From Butyrivibrio sp. (GTDB taxonomy: Bacteria; Bacillota; Clostridia; Lachnospirales; Lachnospiraceae): a DNA stretch of 64,000 nt. The DNA lies in assembly GCA_015056655.1 (NCBI GenBank), contig SVFV01000010.1:1-64000 (forward strand), given 5' to 3'. Of this stretch, positions 720 through 29,737 are shown in pieces. A program made the position numbers and the translations under genes. Numbering within the stretch: position 1 is the stretch's first letter; the number at the start of each line of letters is the position of its first letter. The notes under the pieces were generated by a model. That model saw only the letters and a list, made by a program, of their open reading frames with translations, did not search any database and was not told where the DNA came from.

Positions 720-865
720 AGGGCTGAATCAGGTATTATAATCGTGTGAAGCTGCGTATAAAAACGTTGGTTCTTAAGTGGTGTCCTTTACCACTTTAGA
801 ACCACTACGTTTTTAATCGAGCGAAAGCGTCAGCAGAACACGACTATAATGCCTGGAAAAGCCCT
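720..865. repeat. Long imperfect inverted repeat (hairpin element copy 1)
   Basis: AGGGCT...CAGGTATTATAATCGTGT...TAAAAACGT-TGGTTCTTAAGTGG / CCACTTTAGAACCACTACGTTTTTA...ACACGACTATAATGCCTG...AGCCCT. Confidence 0.75.
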
Positions 866-17133: not shown

Positions 17134-18312
17134 TTAGTGATGGAAGAATCTCATGTGTGTAAATGCCATAACCATATCGTGATCGTTGGCTGCCTGAATA
17201 ACATTGTCATCACGAACAGATCCGCCAGGCTGAGCAACATACTTAACTCCGCTCTTTGCAGCTCTTTCGATGTTGTCACCGAAGGGGAAGAATGCATCTG
17301 AACCAAGAGCCACATCTGTGTTCTTATCAAGCCATGCTCTCTTGTCAGCTTCTGTGAATACTTCGGGCTTTTTCTTGAATAAGTTCTGCCACTTGCCATC
17401 TGCAAGAACATCCATGTAATCAGCGCCGATGTAAAGATCGATTGTGTTATCCCTGTCAGCTCTTCTGATGTTATCAAGGAAAGGAAGCTCAAGTACCTGA
17501 GGAGCCTGACGAAGGAACCAGTTGTCTGCCTTTGAACCAGCAAGTCTTGTGCAGTGGATACGTGACTGCTGACCAGCACCGATACCGATAGCCTGTCCAC
17601 CCTTTACATAGCAAACTGAGTTGGACTGTGTGTACTTAAGTGTAATAAGTGAAATAAGAAGGTCCTTCTTAGCTGCTTCAGGGAGATTCTTGTTGTTTGT
17701 AACGATATCTGCGAGCATCTCGTCATTGATCTCAATATCGTTGTGTCCCTGTTCGAAGGTAACACCAAATACCTGCTTCTTCTCAAGTGCTGCAGGCTTG
17801 TAGGAAGGATCAACCTTGATAACAGCGTAGTTACCGTTCTTCTTTGCCTTGAGGATTTCAAGAGCTTCATCTGTGTAGTCAGGAGCGATGATTCCGTCTG
17901 AAACCTCTCTCTTTACAAGGCGGGCTGTGTCTACATCACAAGTATCTGAAAGTGAAATGAAATCACCAAAGGAAGACATTCTGTCAGCGCCTCTTGCTCT
18001 TGCGTAAGCTGAAGCCATAGGTGAAAGCTCACCAAGATCCTCTACCCAGTAAATCTTCTTTTCAATATCTGTAAGCGGGAGACCAATAGCTGCTCCTGCA
18101 GGTGAAACATGCTTGAATGAAGTTGCAGCAGGAAGGCCTGTTGCCTTTTTGAGCTCTGATACGAGCTGCCAGCCGTTGAATGCATCAAGAAGGTTGATGT
18201 ATCCAGGCTTACCATTTAAAACCTCAATAGGAAGGTCAGAACCATCCTCCATGAAAACTCTTGAAGGCTTCTGATTGGGGTTGCATCCATATTTAAGTGC
18301 TAATTCTTTCAT
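17134..18312 (-). CDS. purH: Stand-alone AICAR transformylase (PurH N10-formyl-THF domain only)
   Basis: LKYGCNPNQKPSR, TSFKHVSPAGAAIG, GAGQQSRIHCTRLAGSKADNW, SDAFFPFGDNIE. Confidence 0.93.
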   Translation of the reverse strand: MKELALKYGCNPNQKPSRVFMEDGSDLPIEVLNGKPGYINLLDAFNGWQLVSELKKATGLPAATSFKHVSPAGAAIGLPLTDIEKKIYWVEDLGELSPMASAYARARGADRMSSFGDFISLSDTCDVDTARLVKREVSDGIIAPDYTDEALEILKAKKNGNYAVIKVDPSYKPAALEKKQVFGVTFEQGHNDIEINDEMLADIVTNNKNLPEAAKKDLLISLITLKYTQSNSVCYVKGGQAIGIGAGQQSRIHCTRLAGSKADNWFLRQAPQVLELPFLDNIRRADRDNTIDLYIGADYMDVLADGKWQNLFKKKPEVFTEADKRAWLDKNTDVALGSDAFFPFGDNIERAAKSGVKYVAQPGGSVRDDNVIQAANDHDMVMAFTHMRFFHH

Positions 18313-18333: not shown

Positions 18334-18471
18334 GCATCAGAGGGTATATGTCTTTGTTCAGAGGACGCTCCCGCTTCATTAAACACGTAGCAGTACTAGG
18401 ACTGTAAAAAACACAGTCCAAGTACTGACGTGTTTATAGACCTCTTCACTAAGAAATATATCCTCTGATGC
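18334..18471. repeat. Long imperfect inverted repeat (hairpin element copy 2)
   Basis: GCATCAGAGGGTATAT...AAACACGT-AGCAGTACTAGGACTGT / ACAGTCCAAGTACTG-ACGTGTTTA...ATATATCCTCTGATGC. Confidence 0.8.
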
Positions 18472-18546: not shown

Positions 18547-19254
18547 TTAGCAGTTTTTATTTATAATACGGGTCTCGTATTTGCCAGTGGAGATGTCTAT
18601 AAAACGTGTAAATAGTGAAACTTTATTGTCTGCGTTAAGTGCATTCCAAATGTTGTTTGTGAAGGTGTCAATGTCGCCTTCGATTGCTACTTCTGTAGGC
18701 TCACCTTCGTAGCTGGGAAGGGGATTGCCATCCTGCATGTATGTGTGGATGAAATAGCCCTTGCCTGCCTTAGGCTTTTCGTATGTGTATGTGAATCTAA
18801 GGCATGTTGAAGGATTGTTGTGATCGCTCTTAAGGATAGACATTGAAATATCATACTGACCATCCTCGATGTGCATAAGACCTGAAATTCTAGGTGTGAA
18901 GTTAGGAGCATCGGGCTCGAACTCTCTTGTGCGAAGAGATTCCTCGAAGGACTGACCAGCTTCCATAAGCTCATATATTGTATCTGTCTGATCGCCGTTA
19001 GTAACGATTGTGTAGTCGCCTCTTACACGTACAGGCGCATATATGATAAGACTGGGATCCTCAAGCTTTGCAGGGTCAAAAGCCTCTGTTCTTATGCCTT
19101 CACCTTCTGTTACGAATACACGATTTCTGCTGTTCTCGCTTCTGCCCATGATGAAGTATGCGCATACTGCGTACTTTCCATCTGCACTTGTACCAATAAC
19201 AATTCCTCTTCCGGGATATGCATTGGATTTAAGATCCTGTTCAAGATTAATCAT
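18547..19254 (-). CDS. IMP cyclohydrolase, archaeal PurO-like
   Basis: NAYPGRGIVIGTSADGKYAVCAYFIMGRSENSRNRVF; adjacent to the stand-alone AICAR transformylase and behind a ZTP riboswitch. Confidence 0.88.
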   Translation of the reverse strand: MINLEQDLKSNAYPGRGIVIGTSADGKYAVCAYFIMGRSENSRNRVFVTEGEGIRTEAFDPAKLEDPSLIIYAPVRVRGDYTIVTNGDQTDTIYELMEAGQSFEESLRTREFEPDAPNFTPRISGLMHIEDGQYDISMSILKSDHNNPSTCLRFTYTYEKPKAGKGYFIHTYMQDGNPLPSYEGEPTEVAIEGDIDTFTNNIWNALNADNKVSLFTRFIDISTGKYETRIINKNC

Positions 19255-19271: not shown

Positions 19272-19315
19272 TAAAAAAGCCGCCTGGACAAGCCAATTAA
19301 CGGCTGCCCAGGCGG
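19272..19315 (-). terminator. Riboswitch expression-platform terminator
   Basis: CCGCCTGGGCA...TGTCCAGGCGG then TTTTTTA on the - strand. The 5' arm is the conserved aptamer pseudoknot sequence. Confidence 0.85.
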
Positions 19316-19380
19316 TCGACAATTCAATAATATATCGCACTCCCTCGTGGTTACCCACTCATCCGCCAGTTGTGCGACAC
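19304..19380 (-). promoter_or_regulatory. ZTP (ZMP; pfl motif) riboswitch
   Basis: - strand gtCGCACaACTGGCGGATGAGTGGGTAACCACGAGGGAGTGCGA ... CCGCCTGGGCA matches the pfl motif. Confidence 0.93.
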
Positions 19381-19473
19381 ATATAATGTACATGAAGGAC
19401 GGACAAAAATCAATGAATTTTTTCTACATAATGTTATTTCAAATTTGGCATGATGCATCATATACGCATGCTT

Positions 19474-29545: not shown

Positions 29546-29585
29546 CTATTTTTGTTCCAACTTGACCAATGAATGTCAGTTAAAA

Positions 29586-29670
29586 TGCTTCCTTACGCCG
29601 GTATTACCCGGTTCAAGTAGTGAGGGTCGACAATGTAATAACATGTCATCTCAGCACAGCTCCCCTAGCA
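29586..29670 (-). promoter_or_regulatory. TPP riboswitch (THI element)
   Basis: - strand AGGGGAGCTGTGCTGAGATGAC...GTCGACCCTCACTACTTGAACCGGGTAATACCGGCGTAAGGAA. Confidence 0.96.
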
Positions 29671-29737
29671 AAATCAATATTTATTTTCGATACTTATTAA
29701 ATGCCTTTTTTATGCGCTTGTCAATAAAAAAGGAAGA

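Follow-up and report, generated by a model that had tools for sequence, protein, structure and literature searches.

A long palindrome lies between a purO-like and a purH-like gene of Butyrivibrio sp., and an earlier note on this DNA left the question whether it is an unclassified structured RNA, a processing or attenuation element, or a MITE-like repeat. The window analysed was a stretch of 64,000 nt (GCA_015056655.1, contig SVFV01000010.1, positions 1 to 64,000), and the same assembly is called this genome below. The earlier note described the palindrome as the second of two related hairpins of opposite orientation, with a common arm pattern and with tip stems that differ but still pair. These observations held. 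The span of copy 2 was exact, and both of its strands folded far better than shuffled sequences (minus strand -69.6 kcal/mol, z = -8.2; plus strand -68.3, z = -10.9). The window contained exactly two occurrences of the arm pattern, one at 18364-18383 (+) and one at 812-831 (-), with 0.17 expected by chance, and 0.01 for a longer version of the pattern. The two copies lay in opposite orientation (Table 1), and their tip stems were unlike in sequence with pairing retained in each. Pfam agreed with the purO-purH interval, the purH-like gene having the formyltransferase domain only, and a ZTP riboswitch was located upstream of purO. The hairpin stopped about 20 nt short of the purH start. The original two-copy observation was confirmed, and its extent was far larger than first noted. 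The window also held a TPP riboswitch at 29573-29676 (-) (RF00059, 62.2 bits).

Table 1. Positions of the two copies, their parts and the neighbouring features in the window
Feature	Position	Strand	Evidence
Copy 2, whole element in the purO-purH interval, outer arms and core	18334..18471	-	sequence; fold
Copy 2, conserved core, 104 model positions	18351..18454	-	cmsearch 107.3 bits (R1), 99.3 bits (R2)
Copy 2, left outer arm; pairs with 18334-18350; sequence found in no other copy	18455..18471	-	
Copy 2, right outer arm	18334..18350	-	
Copy 2, GC-GGGA-GC mini-hairpin with GNRA loop	18367..18374	-	
Copy 2, CT (YT) bulge in the 3' strand of stem P3, conserved	18389..18390	-	
Copy 2, hypervariable tip stem capped by the conserved GUNYUUU loop	18400..18419	-	
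Copy 1, whole element between CYTH-like gene and trigger factor gene	720..865	+	
Copy 1, conserved core	741..844	+	110.9 bits
purH-like AICAR formyltransferase, downstream gene (context)	17134..18312	-	PF01808 (AICARFT)
purO-like IMP cyclohydrolase, upstream gene (context)	18547..19254	-	PF07826 (IMP_cyclohyd)
ZTP riboswitch upstream of purO (context; RNA control)	19299..19383	-	RF01750, 67.6 bits

The anatomy was taken from an alignment of six copies in this genome and is described 5' to 3' along the GNRA-loop strand. The element was a long imperfect palindrome of about 140-190 bp with a conserved three-way-junction core in its centre. The core started with stem P1, which was followed by an internal loop of GAA opposite AGA, stem P2 and the junction. 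The junction carried stem P3 (about 10 bp) with the CT bulge and a tip stem (about 14 bp) capped by the GUNYUUU loop. It also carried a two-base-pair GC-GNRA-GC hairpin and then a bulged T. Arms of about 17-45 nt prolonged the palindrome beyond P1. The third base of the GNRA loop was a purine in 94/94 copies and its final base was A in 94/94, and the T of the bulge was present in 89/94. The element, a 104-nt core plus arms, was intergenic and contained no open reading frame.

An iterated covariance-model search, which the earlier note had proposed as a way to find more homologues, was productive. This genome had 21 strong copies with model R1. Within the genus, R1 gave matches in 50 of 79 genomes, with 0 to 50 or more copies each and about 300 copies in total, and many more copies were found outside it. 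At least 111 of 299 sampled genera of the family Lachnospiraceae carried the element (R1), which is over a third and is a lower bound because only 13 candidates were scored per genome. In an order-level search, 66 of the 68 matching genomes fell in the same family. A draw across the phylum gave one genome of another class (G1050), with 8 copies in which the core was kept and the tip altered. Against Rfam 15, the window copy had no match above a curated threshold, and the same was found for the element at 20 other loci. The TwoAYGGAY RNA model (RF01731) scored 15.9 bits on the window copy against a threshold of 43, and it was not among the matches listed in the repeat search. A known Rfam family, TwoAYGGAY included, was ruled out by this sub-threshold score and the lack of Rfam matches. 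No description of the family was found in the literature sources searched, which included few subscription journals.

Covariation of the core, also suggested as a check in the earlier note, was overwhelming. All 38 of the 38 core base pairs had changes on both sides, and 95.0% of cells were paired. The covariation score was 0.755; shuffles gave 0.196 and slid controls no more than 0.108, and none of 500 shuffles reached the observed value. R1 was built from six of the aligned copies and the alignment leans towards the R1 structure, yet a bias of this kind would not produce so wide a margin. Covariation is usually read as proof of a functional RNA. Here it was accompanied by mismatches that were nearly symmetric between the strands.

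Counting G.U against A.C, split by orientation, is a simple test that separates a DNA cause from an RNA cause. The core held 77 G.U and 51 A.C among 3534 pair cells (G.U 2.2%), whereas the RNA control, a set of 25 distinct ZTP riboswitches from this genus, held 53 and 2 among 425 (12.5%). The difference in G.U:A.C gave p = 9e-8, which like the other mismatch p value is only a guide because the figures are cell counts from related copies and not independent events. The arms gave 90 G.T and 112 A.C in an alignment that penalised all mismatches equally. Selection for pairing in the transcript would be expected to enrich G.U in sense copies and A.C in antisense copies. The observed G.U:A.C counts were 37:34 in sense copies and 62:68 in antisense copies, which was no difference (p = 0.56). 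One core pair showed an RNA-like asymmetry of 17 U.G and 1 C.A. Overall, G.U was rare and close to A.C, with no effect of the transcribed strand, unlike RNA selection in the ZTP control. The nearly symmetric spectrum suggests a DNA cause.

These counts bear on the view that the family is a structured noncoding RNA or an RNA-processing element whose fold is selected on the GNRA-loop strand. Strong covariation, the purine that is always at the third GNRA base and unpaired bases conserved even in another class are what such an RNA would give. A G.U share not far above A.C and the indifference to the transcribed strand are not. Co-directional gene gaps held 28 sense and 30 antisense copies, the element had no conserved gene association, and close relatives lacked the copy. 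We consider this RNA quite unlikely. The earlier argument that compensating stems suggest selection for structure was only half correct: a real, conserved structure is present, but the way it changes was unlike RNA selection in the ZTP control. Among the proposed identities, the MITE-like repeat was best supported because the element is multi-copy and patchy, with bursts, empty sites and both orientations. The structured RNA fitted less well, and an attenuation role at purH was not conserved. The purO-purH copy was present in this genome only among 30 loci, and since it was absent from 29 relatives, a conserved regulator of purH or of purine synthesis was ruled out. Weak model matches (about 22 bits) were seen near purO in three relatives (L101 562-660, L102 562-660 and L105 3517-3615).

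The way in which the stems change was followed within this genome and between orthologues. Each of the 21 copies in this genome had a left arm that matched its own right arm above the 95th percentile of cross-copy left-right pairs. Arms of different copies were 32% identical, little above chance. No sequence in flanks or arms was common to the 21 copies, and the inverted-repeat ends differed from copy to copy. In gapless orthologous cores, 16 both-sided changes from one Watson-Crick pair to another were counted against about 16 one-sided changes, and a fold-based count gave 45 against 23. The orthologue sample was small, and because pairs with nearly identical cores showed few both-sided changes within the core, the more divergent pairs could be separate insertions at one site. 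At tpiA, G000 and G026 had an identical tip stem, and the outer P1 and both arms differed with pairing kept. At the mannose-1-phosphate locus, the cores of G030 and G001 were 98% identical and both arms differed. A burst of at least 63 near-identical copies in G024 shared its arms and contained several compensated tip-stem forms in an otherwise almost constant sequence. In one of its copies, the tip was corrected to a perfect palindrome.

A conventional MITE would explain part of these results. A transposase that reads sequence would insert perfect palindromes, which then decay neutrally; the different arms would be different source lineages, and the apparent orthologues would be repeat insertions at the same site. 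The element is indeed mobile and multi-copy, arms are shared inside bursts, inserted units bring their own arms (tpiA and L299 sites), and G.T close to A.C is what neutral decay gives. Such a MITE does not account for a conserved centre instead of conserved ends, with no flank or arm sequence common to the 21 copies. It also does not account for both-sided arm changes beside an identical core tip at tpiA (G000/G026) or, at the mannose-1-phosphate locus, beside a core with 98% identity. We regard it as unlikely.

The element is mobile, as seen from its patchy copy number, near-identical bursts and empty sites in relatives. Bursts like that of G024 were found in G139, G208 and G212, a tandem array included. 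In the genome pairs G030/G001 and G026/G027, most sites were common, and several were filled in one genome and empty or partial in the other. The tpiA site was filled in G000 and G026, and it was empty in G027 with the same flank. A site between a stop codon and its terminator had an empty and a filled allele (G027 versus G026). The etfA 3' end gave a decay series, with a full element in G000, a deleted interior in G027 and arms only in G026; L175 and L176 were relic loci. The idea that the arms arise when insertion duplicates the target flank in inverted form was rejected, because the empty tpiA site had no arm sequence and the burst arms were shared. At three orthologous sites, L320 (G001), L318 (G027) and L322 (G026), the right part only was present and the left was lost or replaced, which may be ascertainment because the tags lie mostly on the right side.

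The genomic context bears on a mobile hairpin kept as a portable terminator or 3'-end stabiliser, like REP/BIME or SPRITE. Copies were often just past stop codons (median distance to the right gene stop 42 nt, a measure of genomic position alone), and relatives without the element at the pflB and etfA 3' ends had ordinary terminators. Convergent gaps held 16 copies and divergent gaps 8, but this excess was not significant (p = 0.15). One copy sat upstream of an intact terminator that exists without the element too, and sites after genes are also where parasites are best tolerated (PMC3049150). This role seems very improbable.

Carriers of mobility were sought, and no transposase or other mobilising gene was found. 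Y1 transposases (PF01797) did not track the element across the genomes examined: the near-complete genomes G032, G061 and G075 had copies without PF01797, and G005, G036, G019 and G078 had many PF01797 genes and no copies. Mobilisation by RAYT/Y1 was thus unsupported. A target-site duplication, TGA/TTGA, was possible at tpiA, where it was weak, and none was clear at the L299 and ilvC sites. Phage or plasmid carriage gave no match. No ORF-bearing version was seen among the copies and doublets read. The 817-nt spacer between paired copies in G113, a candidate for such a version, was a repeat and not a gene. What looked like the end of a protein to the left of copies in G208 and G139 was a repeated noncoding stretch.

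Based on these results, we propose with a probability of about 0.6 that the element is a non-autonomous MITE/REP-like palindromic DNA element, recognised as folded DNA by a putative factor and with stems matched by DNA-templated correction. A putative transposase or recombinase would recognise the folded single strand, and the element would then move. Recognition would read the unpaired features, namely the GAA/AGA loop, the GNRA mini-hairpin, the CT bulge and the U-rich tip loop, and not the stem sequence. Template switching during a replication or mobility step would copy one arm from its partner and keep the stems complementary at the DNA level, so that both-sided changes would appear almost together. 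Template switching during replication is known to produce both-sided changes in hairpins, and these are reported to be enriched at GNRA loops, which are noted to be stable in both RNA and DNA (PMC8794818). Pure correction does not fit the persistence of bulges and internal loops, which indicates that something preserves them, and recognition by a mobilising protein would be the simplest cause. The purO-purH copy would be a recent insertion, with any effect on purH incidental. More tentatively, and with less confidence than for the palindromic DNA element as such, the family may propagate as a hairpin of single-stranded DNA that is recognised by its structure, with one arm copied from the other in each cycle of replication or movement. 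If so, it would be a natural record, spanning hundreds of genomes, of stems rewritten from a DNA template in a way that mimics RNA covariation.

Some results count against folded-DNA recognition with templated correction. These are the lack of tracking by PF01797, the weak target-site duplication, the single asymmetric core pair and the chance that some both-sided orthologue pairs are separate insertions. A further RNA-like feature is the invariable purine at the third GNRA position, although GNRA loops are stable in DNA too (PMC8794818). In addition, adjacent inverted copies were divergent in 18/18 cases, with left sides facing and spacers of 38-817 nt, and the proposed model does not account for this arrangement (L116, L140, L144, L148, L046, L158, L160, L232-L235, L347, L348, L350; G362:C28, G066:C2, G680:C11).

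The element was compared with known systems. Like a MITE, it is short, has no ORF and occurs in many copies (21 in this genome). A MITE has conserved terminal inverted repeats, whereas the ends here are inverted within each copy and unshared between copies of this genome. REP, BIME and REPIN repeats, with their RAYT (Y1) transposases, are intergenic hairpins found as tandem and inverted doublets with possible transcript effects. The element was similar in its intergenic hairpins and its doublets, but it showed no correlation with Y1 transposases and its conserved part is internal. Integron attC sites are recognised as folded single-stranded DNA and have variable stems, conserved unpaired bases and a variable terminal stem. 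The element looks like them in its stem variation with conserved unpaired bases and its variable terminal stem, which is a resemblance only. The BOX, RUP and SPRITE repeats of Streptococcus are small, intergenic, multi-copy stem-loops that are apparently parasitic and thought to be mobilised in trans (PMC3049150). They share with the element their size, intergenic sites, copy number, stem-loops and apparently parasitic nature. In contrast, they have recognisable sequence throughout, while the arms of the element are unrelated in sequence and its centre is conserved across genera. Stem-loop repeats of Borrelia plasmids are likewise intergenic with paired stem changes; they are restricted to plasmids and interpreted as RNA motifs, and no DNA-versus-RNA test appears in the abstract of that source (PMC2674063).

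The family supplies extensive natural data on how palindromes are corrected in vivo. As an unannotated repeat, it breaks assemblies and could be mistaken for an RNA family. TwoAYGGAY RNA has long variable outer arms around a structured core as well, although its core is different and the core of the element lacks the two AYGGAY loops. These arms suggest that TwoAYGGAY RNA may also be a mobile palindrome. One TwoAYGGAY RNA (98.6 bits) was found at L126 1792-1957 (+), 189 nt from a copy of the element. Other short hairpin repeats with covarying stems were seen in the flanks of L061-L078 in G024 (for example GGTTATTG/CAATAACC, GGTTCTTG/CAAGAACC and GGTTTTTG/CAAAAACC).
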